Assembly (NCBI RefSeq): GCF_003171515.1 | Contig: NC_089392.1 | Coordinates: forward strand, 1,488,001 to 1,552,000 | Length of the DNA stretch: 64,000 bases | DNA from: Pyrenophora tritici-repentis | Taxonomy: Eukaryota > Ascomycota > Dothideomycetes > Pleosporales > Pleosporaceae | Reading direction: 5' to 3' | In this document: positions 4,105 to 17,577 of the stretch, piece by piece | Layout of the letters: every line of letters starts with the position of its first letter | Numbering within the stretch: the first letter of the stretch is position 1 | Made by a program: the position numbers and the translations under genes | Notes under the pieces: model-generated | What the model was told of the DNA's origin: nothing | Databases searched by the model: none | Seen by the model: only the letters and a program-made list of their open reading frames with translations

Positions 4105-7100
4105 CACACCTGAGATCAATCAAGCTAGCTTGATAGCTTGATTGGAAGATTGATGCCAAGCCAATTCAATCAATCCAGCCAAACCTCATACAAAAACGCA
4201 ATCAATCCAGCTGAGCTTTTCCGTGAGCTTGATTCAGATTGATAGCTTGATTGCCTTAAGTATATAGTAGATTTCGGTGATGAGGCAGCCCATGAGGCAG
4301 CTTAGATAGCTGTAAAAGCTCTATACTGAGCTTTTTTTGGTGTTTTAGTTACGCCGTGTAACATTGAGTAATATCCGATAGCTCCGTGTAACTAGCAGCC
4401 AGCGCGTCGTCTCATATAGTATACTCCATCTCCATCTCCATCACCCACAATACTATATACTTTTGGTGTTGCAGATCTATCGCCGTATACCTCACCTCAT
4501 CGTCGCCCTCATGCCGCCCAAAAAACGCGTCTCTGATAGCGCTCCCTCGCCTAGAAAGCGCGCGCGCGGCACTGCGAGCCAGCCCGTCGCGATCGACTCG
4601 CAGTCATATCAATCTCAGCCATCTGCTCTATCTCCGCCGCCTCCATATACACATACTTTCGAGTCGCGATTGCGCGAGTCGCAGCCCGAAGACGCTATCG
4701 TCGCGCCCGCCGAGGGCAGTGAGCAAGCTACGCTCGCTCCGTCTTCTGAAGCCGCCGACGACGCTGTAGATGAGGCTTTTGACGCCCATCTCGAAGACAA
4801 TTATGATGGCATAGATTGGGGTCGCCTTAAGCTGTATACGAAGCCTATCACGACGCACCAACACAAGCGGAGTTGGATCTATCGCCACGGCTATCGCGTC
4901 GCTCTTCTCAAAGATCCAACCCGCGTATTCTTCATCTGCCACTGGTGTTTCAAGCACAAGCTCACGGATATTGGTATTGGGATATACAATACAAGCGCAG
5001 CAGTCTCGTCAGCCGCGCGCCACCTCAGCGAGCAGAAACCTGGCCATAGGCTAGTAGCACCAGGCAAGACTCCAGTTGCTAGTGTTTACAACGCGCTCAC
5101 CACTGCGAGAGTCCCTATCTCACAGGCAGTAGCTAATCAGATTAACGGGTTTAGCAAGCAGCGCTTTAGGTTTGCCGCAGTAGACTGGCTCGTCGCGAAC
5201 AACCACCCCATCTCTGAGTTCGAAACACCAGCTTTTCGACGCCTAATTGCTATCGCCAACCCACTTGCAGAAGCAGCGCTCTGGAAGAACCACAAGAGCG
5301 TCTCCCAATACGTCATACGACTGTTTGACTGGCTCAGGCCCCGCGTTGTCCACGAGCTGTCACAATCGCTTAGCAAGATCCATATAAGCTTTGACGGATG
5401 GACAACGAAAGGCGGCAAGCGCGGGTTTCTCGGTATCGTCGCCCACTACGTCAACTCAGATGGCAAGCTCCGAGACCTGCCTATCGCGCTGCCTCAGCTC
5501 ACAGGCGCTCACTCCGGCGATCGATTAGCTGAGGTTGTATTATCAATCTTAGAGCAGTTTAGCATAAGCGAGCGCACACTCGGTTACTTCGTCCTCGACA
5601 ATGCCTCTAATAACGACACCGCTGTCGCTGCGATTGCCCACGAGCTTAACTTCAATCCTATACACCGACGCCTCCGCTGTGGCCCTCATACGATCAATCT
5701 GATTGGGCAGAGACTGCTCTGGGGCAGAGATGCAGACTCATACAACAACGAGGGAGTTGACGAGCTCGCCGACGAGGCAGCGTTTATAAAGGAGTGGCGA
5801 AAGCACGGGCCTTTAGGCGTACTTCTCGATATTGTCAACTATATCCACACACCGCAGCAGTACAATCTTTTTGAGAAGGCGCAGCGTACAGCTTACCGTG
5901 AGCTACCTCACGACGCAGACGACAAGCTCACGATACTACAGCCAATCAAGCCAGTAGTCACACGCTGGAACTCATACTTCGACTGTTTTGAGCGAGCTAT
6001 AAAGCTCGCGCCGGCCATCAACGCGTACGCGAACACCCACATACAAAATACAGCAAAAGAGGATATCTACGCCGACTCACAGGGCAAAAATCGGCCTGCT
6101 GCTCCACAGTGGATGAGATCAGACGGCCTCACAGCTGCCGATTGGGCTGTTGTTACCGACTATATAGAGGTTCTTAGGCCACTTAAAGAGTGTACAAAGC
6201 GCTTTGAGGGACGTGGCGAGTATAGCTTTGGCGCGATCGCTGAGGTGATCCCAACGTTTGAGTTTCTACTCACTCAATTAGAAGCTCGCCTCCTCTACTA
6301 CGATTGCGTAGTCCATGACGCTCACGACGAGGCACCCGAAGATCACCTTCCTATTAATCTACGCGCAGCGCTACTTAAGGCGAACGAGTACTACGCTAAA
6401 CTCGACGACTCGCCAGCTTACTACGCTGCTACAATACTCCATCCTCGCTACAAACACTACTGCGATCAAGCGTGGGCTGAGAAGCCTGACTGGCTGGCGC
6501 TTAATAATCTTAATTTCCAGGCACTGTGGGCGGATTACAAGTCGCTGCCGTTACCGAGGCCTTGCTACACACGCGCACCGAAGAAACCGAGCAATATTGA
6601 CGACGCGATTGACGGCATTATTGATCCCACACGCGGCAATACTAAGGAGGATGAGTATGAGCAGTGGAAGCGCGAGCCAATCGTTGGCAAGGGCACCGAT
6701 CCTATACAATACTGGTTCGGGCTGCGCGATCAATATCCCAACCTTAGTAAGATGGCGCTTACTATACTCTCTATACCCGCTTCAAGCTGTGAGTGTGAGC
6801 GCGTCTTCAGTGAGCTCGGAGATCTACTAGAGCCTCGCCGACGCTGTATATCACCTGAGCTACTAGCAGCACTACACTCAGTACGACGATGGAGACGGGC
6901 AGGTTTTGGTGGCGGCGACAACGACGATATGGGCCAATCAAAGCTTACCGACGAGCAGATGGACGTTTTGTACGAGCTTAGCAAGTGGGTGGGCGAAGAC
7001 GACGATCTAGATACATGGGACGACGGCTGAGACTCAACACCAAAAAATATATACAACTTTCCTATTTGGGAATCAAGCACCCAAGCTACCAATCAAGCTA

Positions 7101-9415: not shown

Positions 9416-9436
9416 AGGTTTGATTACGCTGGCAAA

Positions 9437-9606
9437 TGGGTTGGGTATACCCAGTCTTGGGTTGGGGTTGGGTTGGGGTCGCACAGACCATGGGTTAGGG
9501 TTGGGTTGGGGTCGCACAGACCATGGGTTAGGGCTGGGCTGGGGTCGCACAGACCAAGTGGTAGGGTTGGGGTTGGGTTGGGTTGGGTTGGGTTGGGGTT
9601 GGGTTA
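9437..9606 (+). repeat. G-rich telomere-like subterminal repeat, left
   Basis: Runs of GGGTTGGG and GGGTTAGGG, with about three units of roughly 33 bp that each contain GGGGTCGCACAGACC. The plus strand has many G-tracts of three or four, so it could fold as G-quadruplexes. It mirrors the C-rich block at the other end of the element. Confidence 0.85.
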
Positions 9607-9702
9607 TATTTTTTGGGTACTTTAACGGAACAACACTTAATTAAGATAATGTGTACACGTTGATGATATAGTAGATACATAAAACGAGATATATTAACAC
9701 AG

Positions 9703-10087
9703 CTAATTATCACGGTAGCGCTGAGGACGCTGGCGCTTTCGAGGTGGCAATTGACGCTCCTCCTGGACCTCTTCCTCCGACTCTTCTTCTGTAGTCTGGT
9801 TCTCCTCATCTATATCGAAGGTATGCTCTAACGAGGCTGGAAGCTCAAAAAGATCATTAACCTCGTCAATTGGCTCTCCATCCTCCCCTAATTGAGCAAC
9901 TAGGTAGTCTAGACCCTGTTCTTCCTCTTGAGATATTGTATCCTTAAGAACCATTATCTGCTGTATTGTCCGGGCAGATAGTCGGTGCCTCCGACTACCA
10001 ATAACATCCTTAGCAACATTGAAAACTCTTTCAACCCCAACCTGAGCAATTGGTATTGCTAGTATATCCTTCGCCACTTGGGATAGT
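9703..10087 (-). pseudogene. hAT transposase C-terminal dimerisation fragment
   Basis: The frame reads LSQVAKDILAIPIAQVGVE then RVFNVAKDVIGSRRHRLS, the conserved hAT dimerisation motif, followed by an acidic stretch and a basic end (RKRQRPQRYRDN). The N-terminal zinc finger and catalytic core are absent from the element. It directly follows the last intron of the minus-strand unknown gene. Splicing there enters a different frame that stops after nine residues, so whether this domain is ever translated as a fusion is unclear. Confidence 0.75.
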
Positions 10088-10624
10088 CTATTAGCAGATG
10101 TCTATGATAAACAGCTGTGATAACTTACCAGACTTTTTCTGGGTAAACCGCTTCTCTGAAAGTATATCCCACTCTTTCTCTAGCAGCTTAGCCTGTCTAG
10201 CACTATTTGCTAATTTATACTTAGGCTGTTGCAAAAGCGATTTCTTCAGTTGGTACTTCGCGGAGCGGTCGGCTGTTCTAACGCTTTCAAGTACCTTCTC
10301 CTCTTTATCGAAAAGAGCTTTGCGTTCACGTTGAGCAATAGCACGGGCGCTACCACTCAGAGAGCCAGTATAGGGGACGCTCAAATTGATAGGTCGGCCT
10401 TTTCGTGAACCCCCACTACCTCTTTGATCTAAGATACCGTCAATCTCGTCAGCTTCACACGCAAATCCCTGCTTATATTAGCATAAGCTGTGATAAATGG
10501 CTGTGATTATTACATCGGTAAGCTGCTCCCACTCATCTTGTTCGAACCCAGGCGGAGGTTCAAGTTTGATGGCTGGAACTAGGCCTTCAGGTACGTCGCC
10601 GACTTGCTCTTTCGCGACAGGCAT
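10059..10624 (-). CDS. Spliced gene of unknown function inside the hAT-type element, 159 aa
   Basis: I do not recognise this protein. Exons read 10624-10514, 10468-10129 and 10087-10059 (480 nt, ATG to TAG). The first exon starts MPVAKEQVGDVPEGLVPAIK and is acidic. The second is charged and helical (SARAIAQRERKALFDKEEKV, SARQAKLLEKEWDI) with a basic patch GGSRKGRPINL. Both introns (10513-10469 and 10128-10088) have GT-AG ends and CTAAT branch-like sites. They share the words TTATCACAG/TTTATCA with intron 1 of the H3-like gene. The gene is divergent from the H3-like gene across about 510 bp. It could be a second captured host fragment or a rearranged part of the transposase. Confidence 0.5.
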
Positions 10625-10758
10625 GGCGGGGACTGTGATAATGCGCTGTTGTAAATGGGGTGTTTTCAATGTAGTAAAGAGAGTTATTAGGTGTTGGGAG
10701 TTACTGGGCGTCAGGGGCTGGAGAAATGGGTAGACAGCATTATGCTCACCTAGAAATG

Positions 10759-11086
10759 GTCCGTGCGCTGCTGCCTGCGCTAGCGCGAAAACGCGGAAAT
10801 TACCCAAAATGATCAACACATCGATGATTCCTTCATTTTTGGGCTGTACGCATGCGCGAGCTCGGCGTTTATCACAGCAGTTTAACACGTTTGTATGATA
10901 TGCTCGCTACTGATTTTGCAACAGAAATGGTTGTATGCGATCGTGAAACAGCAAATTACGTCATGCAGTCCGTGCGCTGCTGCCTTTACTAGTGCGGAAA
11001 TCGGGAAATTGCCGTCGCCCAAACTTTCCAGCTACCTAACTCTTTCAGCCTACTACTTTCTTAATTGTCGACCACATTTATCACAG
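10759..11086. promoter_or_regulatory. Duplicated module in the divergent promoter region of the H3-carrying element
   Basis: Two similar blocks begin GTCCGTGCGCTGCTGCC at 10759 and 10968. Each is followed, exactly 109 bp after its start, by TTTATCACAG (10868 and 11077). The middle of the blocks has diverged. The region lies between the start codons of the minus-strand unknown gene (10624) and the H3-like gene (11135), so it probably holds both promoters. Confidence 0.5.
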
Positions 11087-11134
11087 TAATTAATCACATA
11101 CGTCGCCTACGTTCATCATCTACTCTACTACGCA

Positions 11135-11707
11135 ATGGCAAGGACAAAACCACGGCCTAAGGTCACCGGTAAAGCCGGCCGGGGTGGTCCTGATGGCAAG
11201 ACAGTTACTGGCGGCAAGCCGGCTCAGAAGGCCCTTGCTAGTAAGGCTAGACGTCAAGTAGCAGGAAAGTCTACGCGAAAGGCACCTGTAGCTGTTAAGA
11301 AGAAGCGCAAGTTTAAGGCCGGCAGTAGGTTATCACAGTCGTTTATCACAGCTATTTTCTAATTTAGCTTAGCTGTCGCATTACGGGAAATCAAGAGATA
11401 CCAGAGAGGTTTTGAACTACTCTTGCGAAAACTCCCCTTTTCCCGCGTAGTGCGCGAATTTGCACAGGTGCACAAGGCCGATATCCGCTTTCAACGATCT
11501 GCAATCGAAGCTCTTCAGGAAGCTACAGAAGCTTTCTTAGTTGGTTATTTTGAGGGTATAGTCTATCTACCCTATACTATTTTTCATTTAATAACTTTTA
11601 TAGACTGCAACATCAATGCTATTCACGCAAAGAGGGTTACTATTCAAGAGAAGGATTCTCAATTGGCTAGGCGCTACTTTGCGCGCGAGTTACTAGCTTT
11701 TCTCTAG
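11135..11707 (+). CDS. Transposon-borne histone H3-like protein, 158 aa
   Basis: Exons are 11135-11324, 11373-11555 and 11604-11707 (477 nt). The two introns are 48 bp each with GT-AG ends, and splicing restores [13 protein letters not shown] and [14 protein letters not shown] exactly at the H3 landmarks. The histone fold is complete: [51 protein letters not shown]. Loop 1 has canonical length, so it is not CENP-A-like. The tail keeps ARTK at the start but is about 22 residues longer than normal H3 and contains [15 protein letters not shown]. Neither ARKS motif (K9, K27) is present. The C terminus is replaced by [10 protein letters not shown]. It sits inside the terminal repeats of a hAT-type element, so it is a captured and diverged copy. 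Open frames and correct splice sites suggest a recent capture or selection to keep it coding. Confidence 0.88.
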
Positions 11708-11871: not shown

Positions 11872-12010
11872 TAACCCAACCCTAACCCATGGTCCGTGCG
11901 ACCCCAACCCAACCCCAACCCAACCCTAAGCTTGGCGCTGACAAATGGGTTGGGGTTGGGTTGGGGTCGCAAAATTTCTAACCCAACCCCAACCACACCC
12001 CGACCCATTT
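11872..12010 (-). repeat. C-rich telomere-like subterminal repeat, right
   Basis: AACCCAACCCTAACCC-type repeats including GGTCCGTGCGACCCC, inverted relative to the left block. A short G-rich piece (11946-11968) sits inside it in the opposite sense, so the block may form hairpins. Confidence 0.8.
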
Positions 12011-12039
12011 GCCAGCGTAGGTTTGATCCATCACATTTA

Positions 12040-12913: not shown

Positions 12914-14174
12914 ATGACGACATTTACCACCCGCGACGCGACCGTGACTTTACGCGACCAGTCAGACTACACCGGTTGGATGCTACAACTGCAAGCGCGT
13001 TGCATAGCACACAATATTTGGGATAAGATTGACCCAAAGACTACTACTCACTTCTGGCATCGAAGAGCCAGGAAGACTTAGCGAACTATCGAACAGCGGA
13101 CAGAAAGCGTTTAAAGAAGACCTCGAGTACTATCGCATGTCGATGGAGCAGTACAAAAGCGACCGACACCAATACGAAAAGGAGCAGTCAAGCTTCCAGC
13201 ACATCATGACCCTGATTCAATCAAGCGTGTCACCGCACCTACTACGCACATGCTGTCTCCCAGACAAGACACTTCGCGAGTGGATTATAAACTTGAAGCT
13301 TACAGTTGGAGTGAGCGATCGCACCGAGAAGGAGCGAGCTAGAGAAAGATACCTAGCATCCCTCAAACCAATGAGGACCCCAAATCAATGGGACACGTGG
13401 CTGGCGGAATATGACCAAGCCGCCACGGAAGCTGAAGTATACAGCGTACCAGAAGTGTCACAACTTGATGCGATGTCAAAGGACTTTCTGGTGGCCGTCC
13501 AGAAAACAGCACCTATCTGGGCCGTAAACTTCCAAGAGAACGGACGATGGGCAGCTGGGATGAGCCGAAAGGAGATGATGAATCGGTTCCGAGAGCACAT
13601 GATGATGCACCATCCCCTTTTTAGATCAGGGAAGCACAAAGCAGCTATGGCAGCTTACGATGAAAGCACACATGATGATACAACTCTCGCTGGAGGTGCA
13701 TCCTACCAGCCACTGCGCGGGACGCCGAGCAGTGGGGTCACCGCGCCATCTACCAACTTGAATCCGGGGAATACCTCGCAAACAAAGTATCGGGGACGTC
13801 CTCGTAAACAACCACAAACCTCACGAGCCATGAGAAAGCCAGCACAGAAGCGGTCCTCAGCGCAAAGTGAAGGGACTACCTCCGGGCAGAAATGCCCAGC
13901 GTGTTATCAATATCATGAACTCAGAGCATGCTACTATGTCAATCCAGACCTAGCGCCAGAGTGGTGGACACCAAATGAAGCTACAAATGAACTAATCCCG
14001 TACACGCACGCCAGCTCTGAAACAATCACATACACCAACGCCGGAGTACTCTCAGTCACCAATCGAATGACTAGAAGGCCGAAAGATTACGGACGTAGAC
14101 GCCGCGTTCACTACCATCGCACGGAGTGGGACAGCCGAGCACACGTACCCTCTCGCACGATCATTCATTCTTGA
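12914..14174 (+). pseudogene. copia Gag region with two frame breaks
   Basis: Gag starts at 12914 (MTTFTTRDATVTLRDQSDYT). The frame is lost near 13050 (stop after HFWHRRARKT) and continues one frame over with LLASKSQEDLANYRTADRKR. It shifts again near 13112 into the long frame EDLEYYRMSMEQYKSDRHQY. Both breaks are explained by a single missing base, in a CC and a TTT run. A zinc-knuckle-like CPACYQYHELRAC lies near the end, which stops at 14174. The pol frame that follows is +1 relative to this frame. The breaks could be inherited, real inactivation or sequencing errors. Confidence 0.82.
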
Positions 14175-17100
14175 TTCAGGAGCGACGTGCCACATCACAA
14201 ACAATCCAGATCGGATATACAACTACCGCCCGTCATCATTAGGAGACTACATATGGGCTGGTAGTATAAAGATTTGGATACGGGGATACGGGACCACAGA
14301 CATCACGCTGCAACATCAGCATAGGACAACAAAGCTAGTGCTGCGAGATGTGGCAATCTGCCCAGAGATCGTATGCAATCTAGTGTCCTTCCGACTGCTA
14401 CGGCAGAGAGGAATCTGGTGGGATACCAAATCAAACCCAACCAACCTACGAGGACCAGACGATCAAGTTATTGGCAACCTCTTAGAAAATTTTGGCCAGT
14501 GGGTATTAGAGTACAATCCTCTAGCCCAGGCATTTGTCCACACAAAAGCCATCACAGCACGCACGCAGCGAGGACCAAAGAAGGCCTCAGCGATGCTGTG
14601 GCACAAGAGACTCGGCCACCCGGGACCAGCAGCAATCGAGCATCTCGTGCAGCAGTCTGAGGGGGTGCGAGTTCAAGGGGTGACGACAGTACAATGCGAC
14701 TCCTGCGGAAGAGCCAAGTCCAAGAGACAGATACGACGCCTACCGCGAACAAACGACGAAGGCCCAGGAGAGCGACTTGCTATCGACTTCCATACATACG
14801 AAGTCCAGGCGATCACAAAAGAGAAGAGCCAAATGCTCATTACCGATCGTTTCTCAGGCCTCCAATGGGACTTATACTTTACCGACAACCGGACAGCCAA
14901 GTCTATTATCCGGCTGCTCACAACTTTCTTCTCATTTATGAAGAACCATTACAATATATCCGTTAAGACCATAGAGTCTGACAACGAGATCACAACTGTT
15001 AAGCCAGATGTCGAGCGATGGCTGGCAACACAGGGCATCAGAGTCGAGCCCTCAGCCCCAGACACACAGGCACAAAACGGTGGAGCCGAGCGCTCAGGGG
15101 GTGTGAACAAGGAGAAGGCACGCGCAATGCGACTTGACGCCAATCTCTCTTGGGAATTGTGGCCAGAAATCACTCGAGCCGCAGTCTATCTCTACAACAG
15201 AACCCCAAACTACAACAATCACTGGAAGACACCATACGAAGTCTTCTTCACACGAGTAGCTTTTAGCAACGGAATAGTCACATCTCTCCGAAAACCAAAC
15301 CTCACTCATCTTAAGGCATATGGCTGCAAAGCTTTCGCCATGACAGACGACACCCACAGAGGGAAGTCGCGCCTACAACGCCTCGACCCAAAGGCATGGA
15401 TCGGATACCTAGTCGGATACCGGTCATCAAACATCTACCGAATCTGGATACCGTCACTCGCCAAAGTGATAAGCACTAGAGACGTTGTCTTCGACGAACA
15501 GTCAATCTTCGATGGCAAAACCGAAGACCTAATGGACAACCTCATGCACAATACGCTAGAAGAAATTGCGACACACGTGAGGACCATTGAGCTGCCAACA
15601 CCAGCGCAGCAACCAGAGACGGAGTCTTTCTATGAGGACAGTCCACCGGAGGAGTCACTCGCTCAGGACAGCGAGGGCGACCAGCCAGGATACTATCAAG
15701 GGAGAAAAATCCGGGACAGCTACCCGACACCTCCGGCGACACCGCCACCCGCAGCGTTGCTCGCGCGGCTAATGGCAGGAGCATCGCTAGATGAGAAGGA
15801 TCGACAAGGAACCCCTAAGACTGCCCCATGGGCAGCAGCGTTCATGGCGGGTACCCAGGCCGGAAAGGTTGGAGAATACAGAGGAGTAGCTATGGACAAG
15901 GCTGCGATTGTGAGAATGCTCGCCAAAGGCTTGAAGCCCCATCGCAGTCAGCTACCACCTCTGCCAACATGCCGAACTAAGCTTGAGGACCACCCAATGG
16001 GAGAACTATTCAAAGAAGCAGAACAGTCCCATCTGGCAAGCCACCATCAAATGAACTCATGGACAGAGATCCCTATAAAGAAAATCAAGCAAACAGGACA
16101 ACAAATCCTGGACTGCATGTGGGTATACACCTACAAACTTGACAAGCATCACCGACTACTCAAGTGCAAGGCACGACTAGTCGTCCGCGGTGATCAGCAG
16201 CGAAACATCACATCGCAAGACACCTACGCGGCAACACTCGCAAGCCGGTCGTTCCGAATGCTAACCGCAATTGCGGCAAAGTACGACCTAGAGCTCAAAC
16301 AGTACGACGTGGCAAACGCCTTCGTGCATGCGACAATAGACCGAGAAGTATTCATGAGAATGCCACGCGGCCATCAGAAGCCAGGTACTATACTCAAGCT
16401 TAACAAGGCATTGTATGGACTGCGCATATCCCCGCTCCTCTGGCAGAAAGAGTTCACAAGCACTCTCAAAGAACTCGGTTTCCAAGAAGTACCGCACGAG
16501 CCCTGCTGTCTCATCAAAGGCGGCATCATTATCTTCTTCTACGTGGACGACATCATACTAGCATACCACAAAGACATGGAGCAATCCGCCCAGCAGGCAA
16601 TTGCCCGCCTACAGGAGAAGTACCTCTTCACAGGAGGAAATGACCTACAATGGTTCCTCGGCGTCGAGATCATCAGAGATCGCAAATCAAGGACGATCCA
16701 ACTGTCGCAGGCGGCCTACGCAGACAAGATCAGTAGACTGGCCGACCGTACCGACATTAGACACGACACGCCGATGGCGACTGCCGAGCTACTCCCTAGA
16801 GATGGGCTCGCCTGCCCATCAGAGATCAACAAATACCAGCGCAAGATAGGCTCACTCCTCTTCGCAGCTGTAACTACCAGACCAGACATCGCCTTTGCGA
16901 CGTCGCGGCTCGCCCGCTTTCTCTCCAATCCAGGACTAGAGCACCACAACGCTGCCGACCGTGTTCTTCTATATCTACTAGCGACAAAACACCTCGCGCT
17001 ACAACTTGGAGGAGGCACTGGACTGCAGATAGCCAGCGACGCCTCCTTTGCCGACAATACCCTAGACAGGAAGAGCTCACAAGGCTACGCGATTAAGCTC

Positions 17101-17577
17101 TTTAATGGACTCATCGCATGGAAAGCAAACAAACAAGACACTGTTACAACATCAACGACAGAAGCCGAGCTTCTCGCCCTGTCTCAAGTGGCTAAGGAAG
17201 CTCTATTCCTGTCCCGTCTCCTCAAGGAGCTGAACATCCAGCTTGACACCCCTAGTATCACTATTCAATGCGACAACAAACAGACTATTCGCCTAGTCAC
17301 CGAGGAGGTCTCAAAGCTTCAAACCAAACTCAGACATGTCGACATACACAATCACTGGATCAGACAGGAGGTGTCGACAGGCCGGATCTCCGTAGAGTAC
17401 ATACCTACCGCGGATATGATCGCCGACGGTCTCACCAAATCATTGCCACCAAACAAATGGCCAGAATTCCTAGAACAACTAGGACTAGTCCCCGCTAAGG
17501 AAATCCTGGCGAGAAACTCGGCACCGCTCGAAGAAATTCAAGAGAAACTTGAAAATCTCGTGGTAAGCCTTGAGTAG
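14164..17577 (+). CDS. copia Pol polyprotein, open
   Basis: The pol frame contains an aspartic protease motif FILDSGATCHI at 14164 and stays open to the TAG at 17575. An ATG is not needed if pol is made by frameshifting from gag. Domains in order: GAG-pre-integrase zinc module (LWHKRLGHPGP, then CDSCGRAKSKR), integrase core with catalytic Asp in AIDFHTY, Asp in IESDNE and Glu in NGGAERSGG, reverse transcriptase (KARLVVRGDQQ, LKQYDVANAFVHA, FFYVDDIIL near 16540) and RNase H (IASDASFADN, STTEAELLAL). All key acidic residues are present. The C terminus ends just before the polypurine tract. Confidence 0.93.
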   Translation, partial: FILDSGATCHITNNPDRIYNYRPSSLGDYIWAGSIKIWIRGYGTTDITLQHQHRTTKLVLRDVAICPEIVCNLVSFRLLRQRGIWWDTKSNPTNLRGPDDQVIGNLLENFGQWVLEYNPLAQAFVHTKAITARTQRGPKKASAMLWHKRLGHPGPAAIEHLVQQSEGVRVQGVTTVQCDSCGRAKSKRQIRRLPRTNDEGPGERLAIDFHTYEVQAITKEKSQMLITDRFSGLQWDLYFTDNRTAKSIIRLLTTFFSFMKNHYNISVKTIESDNEITTVKPDVERWLATQGIRVEPSAPDTQAQNGGAERSGGVNKEKARAMRLDANLSWELWPEITRAAVYLYNRTPNYNNHWKTPYEVFFTRVAFSNGIVTSLRKPNLTHLKAYGCKAFAMTDDTHRGKSRLQRLDPKAWIGYLVGYRSSNIYRIWIPSLAKVISTRDVVFDEQSIFDGKTEDLMDNLMHNTLEEIATHVRTIELPTPAQQPETESFYEDSPPEESLAQDSEGDQPGYYQGRKIRDSYPTPPATPPPAALLARLMAGASLDEKDRQGTPKTAPWAAAFMAGTQAGKVGEYRGVAMDKAAIVRMLAKGLKPHRSQLPPLPTCRTKLEDHPMGELFKEAEQSHLASHHQMNSWTEIPIKKIKQTGQQILDCMWVYTYKLDKHHRLLKCKARLVVRGDQQRNITSQDTYAATLASRSFRMLTAIAAKYDLELKQYDVANAFVHATIDREVFMRMPRGHQKPGTILKLNKALYGLRISPLLWQKEFTSTLKELGFQEVPHEPCCLIKGGIIIFFYVDDIILAYHKDMEQSAQQAIARLQEKYLFTGGNDLQWFLGVEIIRDRKSRTIQLSQAAYADKISRLADRTDIRHDTPMATAELLPRDGLACPSEINKYQRKIGSLLFAAVTTRPDIAFATSRLARFLSNPGLEHHNAADRVLLYLLATKHLALQLGGGTGLQIASDASFADNTLDRKSSQGYAIKLFNGLIAWKANKQDTVTTSTTEAELLALSQVAKEALFLSRLLKELNIQLDTPSITIQCDNKQTIRLVTEEVSKLQTKLRHVDIHNHWIRQEVSTGRISVEYIPTADMIADGLTKSLPPNKWPEFLEQLGLVPAKEILARNSAPLEEIQEKLENLVVSLE

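Follow-up and report, generated by a model that had tools for sequence, protein, structure and literature searches.

The window analysed here, i.e. the whole 64,000-nucleotide stretch of Pyrenophora tritici-repentis DNA, contains between positions 9425 and 12019 a hAT-type transposon of 2,595 bp in which a complete and spliced gene for a histone H3-like protein (H3L) is located. The left end, TACGCTGGCAAATGGG (9425-9440), forms together with positions 12004-12019 perfect 16-bp inverted repeats, and the element is flanked by the 8-bp duplication GGTTTGAT (9417-9424 and 12020-12027). The hAT assignment follows from these ends, from a perfect 8-bp duplication at 23 of the 33 copies found in the genome (see below), and from a transposase with a C-terminal dimerisation domain (PF05699; E=2.4e-20 for the long copy L043, modelled as a spliced protein of 848 aa, and E=2.9e-07 for the chimera exon of the window). 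A preliminary description of the window had placed the gene in a hAT-type transposon with the right coordinates and had also recognized the 16-bp ends; its duplication, framed as AGGTTTGA, was one base off and GGTTTGAT is the better frame. The tally of duplications across the 33 copies was made with the ends taken as TACGCTGG....

The H3L gene starts with the ATG at 11135 and its stop codon ends at 11707. Removal of two 48-bp introns (11325-11372 and 11556-11603), both GT..AG and both described previously, gives an open frame of 158 aa in three exons, and the spliced product matches the Pfam Histone family with E=9.4e-32. On the minus strand a chimeric gene joins the N-terminus of a central ORF to the C-terminus of the hAT transposase; it encodes 275 aa with a GTAAG donor in intron 2, and three other splice choices are likewise in frame. 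The features of the element are as follows (for the dimer motif, see below):

9417..9424, unstranded: target site duplication, left, GGTTTGAT (from the duplication comparison)
9425..9440, plus: terminal inverted repeat, left, 16 bp, perfect
9457..9607, plus: G-rich subterminal array, GGGTTGGG and units of approximately 33 bp (from sequence and inverted repeats)
9694..9715, plus: dimer motif, 13-bp period, left subterminal, inward-pointing
9703..10076, minus: chimera exon 3, the hAT transposase C-terminus with dimerisation domain PF05699
10083..10088, minus: deletion junction gactat, long form to short form (from the copy overlap at query 444-449)
10102..10123, minus: dimer motif inside chimera intron 2 (10077-10128, GTAAG-donor model)
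10129..10471, minus: chimera exon 2, from the central ORF
10488..10509, minus: dimer motif inside chimera intron 1 (10472-10513)
10514..10624, minus: chimera exon 1, the central ORF N-terminus
10633..10654, minus: weak dimer (2 mismatches), directly upstream of the chimera/central ORF ATG
10869..10890, plus: dimer motif upstream of H3L
11078..11099, plus: dimer motif upstream of H3L, 35 bp from the ATG
11135..11324, plus: H3L exon 1
11325..11372, plus: H3L intron 1, 48 bp, with a dimer motif at 11330-11351
11373..11555, plus: H3L exon 2
11556..11603, plus: H3L intron 2, 48 bp, without dimer
11604..11707, plus: H3L exon 3 including the stop codon
11793..11814, minus: dimer motif, right subterminal, inward-pointing
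12004..12019, minus: terminal inverted repeat, right
12020..12027, unstranded: target site duplication, right

The G-rich array at 9457-9607 has a rough mirror image at 11873-12002, and in both places telomere-like runs of the G-rich strand, GGGTTGGGG and GGGTTAGGG, lie mirrored inside the ends; such runs could form quadruplexes. Downstream of the element two long frames occupy positions 13029-17577, which on a reading of their motifs we take to be a Copia-like retrotransposon.

In its own genome (40.9 Mb) the element is present at 33 loci, i.e. 22 short and 11 long copies, which excludes chance as the origin of the structure and bears out the earlier proposal that the H3L element has multiplied. 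The long copies (5,840-5,882 bp) have approximately 3.3 kb extra at window positions 10083-10088, and in these both the transposase and the central ORF are present. With the exception of one locus the clean copies are 99-100% identical. Further insertions were detected within three of the 22 short copies (L038, L039 and L040), and in L040 the insertion starts in H3L intron 2. Two of the loci on C7 recur on C18, a contig of 35 kb, with 99.9% identity over 3,596 bases each, representing either a segmental duplication or an assembly duplicate, and 31 independent insertions is therefore the safer count. A head-to-head pair of H3L elements occurs twice, at G000:C18:5954-12899 and G000:C7:1128122-1135068.

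Among the 23 copies with a perfect 8-bp duplication 22 duplications are distinct. For four copies the duplications are exchanged within two pairs, L032/L033 on C4 (within G000:C4:2928190-2937321) and L039/L040 on C6 (within G000:C6:2874257-2917100), which is the pattern that an inversion of the intervening DNA, through recombination between oppositely oriented copies of this transposon, would leave, and six of the 33 have no matching duplication. Ends identical to those of the window are all situated at H3L-bearing loci, where 62 exact and four one-mismatch ends account for two ends at each of the 33 loci. Searching by ends, exact or with one mismatch, for elements that lack H3L gave none with exact ends; 13 further one-mismatch ends correspond to five 134-bp mini-elements and three single ends. 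These mini-elements, at G000:C5:244071-244204 and four other places, have no room for a gene.

The central ORF of the long form matched no Pfam family above the cut-off (best GCFC, E=0.022) and no solved structure with better than E=0.56. In the 355-aa spliced model for L043, in which the acceptor is the first AG past CTAAT, the last 98 residues include 39 acidic and 4 basic ones; in the top-ranked alternative of 356 aa the acceptor is 10 bases further on and the C-terminus is different, so the acidic end is uncertain since it depends on one of two splice models. The modelled frames of the central ORF and of the transposase are open without further introns.

A short motif recurs throughout the element. 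It consists of two 9-bp boxes at an exact 13-bp period, TTAWCACRK-N4-TTAWCACRK. Allowing at most one mismatch per half, L043 contains 11 such dimers and no same-strand pairs at other distances up to 40, and 200 order-1 Markov-resampled sequences gave no dimer at the 13-bp period; a looser setting, run without control, gave 12 dimers in L043. One of these 12 lies near each end (as an inverted pair), both introns of the transposase gene and all three of the central ORF contain one, as does H3L intron 1, and four precede the start codons of the three genes, the one before the central ORF being weak. Judged by coordinates, 10 of the 10 non-terminal dimers are in the sense orientation of their gene. 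Moreover, the dimer constitutes the body of six of the seven modelled introns (for the central ORF and the transposase these are models, in which splice sites giving an open frame were sought around the dimers), starting 4-6 nt into the intron in five cases and 11 nt in one, while H3L intron 2 was checked and has no dimer. Genome-wide there are 131 strict matches, compared to one for a reversed control pattern, and at least 130 of the 131 belong to this family (128 at the 33 loci and two in the transposase fragment L058). Finally, L059, a relic of the central ORF that is 71% identical, has a degraded dimer at the corresponding intron place, and the dimer arrangement therefore predates the present burst.

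The dimers may be control sites for a protein of the transposon, or introns multiplied inside the transposon, and with either reading H3L is tied to the transposon's own genes. That introns were multiplied in an introner-like manner, such that the dimer of H3L intron 1 was copied from an intron of the transposase gene or the central ORF, is quite possible, although we rate it somewhat below even. The position of the dimers as intron bodies, their uniform sense orientation and the degraded intron dimer in the relic L059 all speak for it. The inverted subterminal pair and the dimers preceding start codons lie outside modelled introns, however, and would be better accommodated as binding sites for a putative protein of the transposon itself.

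A histone family search of the genome gave 41 matches, 33 of which are H3L and eight lie elsewhere; among the latter, L052 is the H3 gene of the host, and two matches at L053 belong to a CenH3-like gene. In the fold core (residues 44-131) H3L is identical to host H3 at 62 of 88 positions, and in the tail at 20 of 43 with 18 inserted residues in addition. Judged by the contact residues of nucleosome structures, H3L retains 15 of 16 DNA-contact residues (permutation P 0.019) and 8 of 10 residues of the H3-H3' bundle, the latter not above chance (P 0.39). In CenH3 (CENP-A) the loop that connects helices 1 and 2 (loop 1) is extended, and H3L lacks three loop-1 residues that are present in the host CenH3-like gene, which is why we rejected H3L as a CenH3. 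Host H3 and CenH3 can be told apart at 24 columns, and at these H3L agrees with H3 in seven cases, with CenH3 in seven and with neither in 10. Judged by its sequence, H3L is classified as a divergent H3-type histone and not CenH3. A scan of viral contigs with H3L, restricted to patterns of close relatives, yielded 17 pattern matches, none of which was confirmed as a relative, and a viral source of H3L is at present a suggestion without support.

The gene differs from host H3 also at the nucleotide level. Host H3 has one 70-bp intron within codon Q19, whereas H3L is interrupted by introns in codons T45 and D106 (H3 numbering); the comparison of intron positions suggested in the preliminary description thus revealed none in common. 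The GC3 value of H3L (0.459) is similar to those of the central ORF (0.454) and the transposase (0.409) and differs from that of host H3 (0.796), and 56 of the 83 residues that are identical between H3L and host H3 are encoded by different codons. Dimer and base composition together constitute evidence, at the level of sequence, that places H3L in the transposon's own gene set. H3L fits an old, constrained H3-type gene. The transposon-like composition, the absence of an intron at the host H3 position and the dimer-built intron 1 suggest that it has probably been resident in the transposon for a long time rather than being a fresh host copy. This reading is based on composition and introns, and a gene from an AT-rich donor species would give the same picture.

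A recent transduplication, in which the H3 gene of this fungus or its transcript was picked up and then drifted fast, is near the published wording but appears unlikely to us. Capture of a spliced transcript would fit the lack of an intron at the host position, and H3 has also been captured in hAT elements of Mycosphaerellaceae (PMC6710886). Such an event would, on the other hand, have to account for the difference in GC3, the 18 extra tail residues, a core that is only 70% identical and two introns elsewhere, which is much change for a family with near-identical clean copies, and for agreement with host H3 at only seven of the 24 columns that distinguish H3 and CenH3. Of the transduplication named in the preliminary description, the part that stands is an H3-like gene in a hAT element, while pickup of the host gene is weakened by the differences in intron positions and base composition.

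The H3L frame is open at 30 of the 33 loci and the same protein is predicted at 27; the 573-bp gene is identical in 19 copies and has one silent change in eight. The substitutions are E78G in two copies and Q104R in one (numbering from Met). L040 and L045 both lack one base in the G run at 11181, a deletion that may also have arisen repeatedly or reflect a sequencing error, and the frame of L051 is interrupted by stops. The preliminary description had considered that the gene would be a dead passenger if no other copies existed or if frames were broken elsewhere, and with 33 loci and 30 open frames neither is the case.

L051, a long copy at G000:C1:7525211-7532086, differs from the 32 clean copies. 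Compared to the long copy L046 it has 284 substitutions over 5,859 aligned bases, 231 of which are C to T or G to A, and since 183 of these 231 are in CpA/TpG context L051 carries the mark of strong RIP. This suggests that the clean burst is later than the RIP of L051, or that it escaped RIP; according to the accessible text of Manning et al. 2013 (PMC3538342), RIP in this species is inefficient, if it occurs at all. To analyse selection RIP-type sites were set aside, leaving 4, 7 and 8 differences between L051 and L046 in H3L, the central ORF and the transposase, respectively. The synonymous and non-synonymous differences are 1 and 3 for H3L (0.71 synonymous expected), 1 and 6 for the central ORF (1.38 expected), and 3 and 5 for the transposase part (2.41 expected), where only 274 codons were tested because L046 has a stop in the transposase, which is itself among the counted differences. 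With these few differences no excess of silent change was seen in any of the three genes, and the sole diverged copy, L051, gave no sign of purifying selection on H3L (four differences), although such selection may nonetheless act.

H3L could hence be a gene that was captured once and is carried between the ends as a passenger without function for transposon and host, its intact frames reflecting the recent burst, and we consider this to have nearly an even chance. Open frames say little when the clean copies are near-identical, and the deletion in L040 and L045, the stops in L051 and the absence of a purifying signal against L051 all agree with it. It is more difficult to reconcile with the fold being retained (62 of 88 core residues) while 56 of 83 identical residues use another codon, which suggests a long divergence under protein constraint, although this may predate the capture. 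In addition, the gene has been kept at all 33 loci with these ends, and ESTs have been published (PMC3538342).

Taking these data together, we consider it highly probable that the element in the window is a non-autonomous short form of the known H3L-hAT family, and that H3L is an H3-type, transcribed, long-time resident of the transposon. The short form would have arisen by a deletion at the 6-bp word gactat, in which the greater part of the transposase and a large part of the central ORF were lost, and it is presumably moved in trans by the transposase of the long form. H3L would probably have been in the transposon for long, with its intron 1 built on the dimer common to the transposon's other introns, and would encode a divergent H3-type histone with the residues expected for DNA binding. 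That the element spreads an H3 variant with possible entry into chromatin, as proposed in the preliminary description, is plausible because 15 of the 16 DNA-contact residues are retained. As a more tentative proposal, possible rather than probable, expressed H3L would pair with H4 and enter nucleosomes. We regard it as highly improbable, also because the acidic end depends on one of two splice models, that the long form brings along a chromatin kit of its own, in which the acidic central protein acts as histone chaperone for a dedicated H3 variant; if true, the dimers at ends, promoters and introns would mark the element for loading and its chromatin would escape host silencing.

Introner-like elements are near-identical introns in many unrelated host genes. 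The present case resembles these in that several introns share one underlying sequence and differs in that the dimer introns are confined to one transposon's own genes; we therefore do not assign the dimers to this class, at least 130 of the 131 strict matches being in copies or a fragment of a single transposon. In the accessible main text of one article on introner-like elements (PMC9860276), Pyrenophora, Dothideomycetes and hAT are not mentioned.

Capture of H3 by hAT elements in Mycosphaerellaceae, held to be independent by the authors, is reported in the available text of Dhillon et al. 2019 (PMC6710886). As here, an H3 coding sequence lies between hAT ends and has been amplified. Unlike here, the copies per genome number from more than a hundred to hundreds, and every one except the presumed original gene has been inactivated by RIP; the authors state that these elements do not resemble the hAT sequence of P. 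tritici-repentis.

The closest system is H3L-hAT of P. tritici-repentis itself. The preliminary description had referred to a report on this species, probably with involvement of H3, and this report exists (Manning et al. 2013, PMC3538342), so that the gene-in-transposon has been known since 2013. The accessible text describes a 5.6-kb form in 10 copies and a 2.3-kb form in 16, the short form arising via recombination at gactat and giving an in-frame chimera, and the H3L protein (PTRG_00559.1) as neither H3 nor CenH3. The window element has in common with H3L-hAT the hAT dimerisation domain, inverted ends, an H3-like gene, two forms, the gactat junction (10083-10088), the in-frame central ORF/transposase chimera and tens of near-identical copies, and because architecture, junction and chimera match we assign it to this family. 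The numbers and sizes differ, with 11 long and 22 short copies of 5,840-5,882 and 2,595 bp here as against 10 and 16 of 5.6 and 2.3 kb published. In the main text of PMC3538342 the words subterminal, acidic and intron (as whole word) are absent and "introns" appears in a figure legend; its available passages hold no dimer motif, GC3, host intron comparison, RIP-mutated copy or swapped duplications. As far as freely accessible main texts go, the dimer motif, the base composition and the copy mutated by RIP may thus be unreported. With dimer and base composition pointing to the transposon's gene set, the leading hypothesis is that any function of H3L would serve the transposon and not the host.
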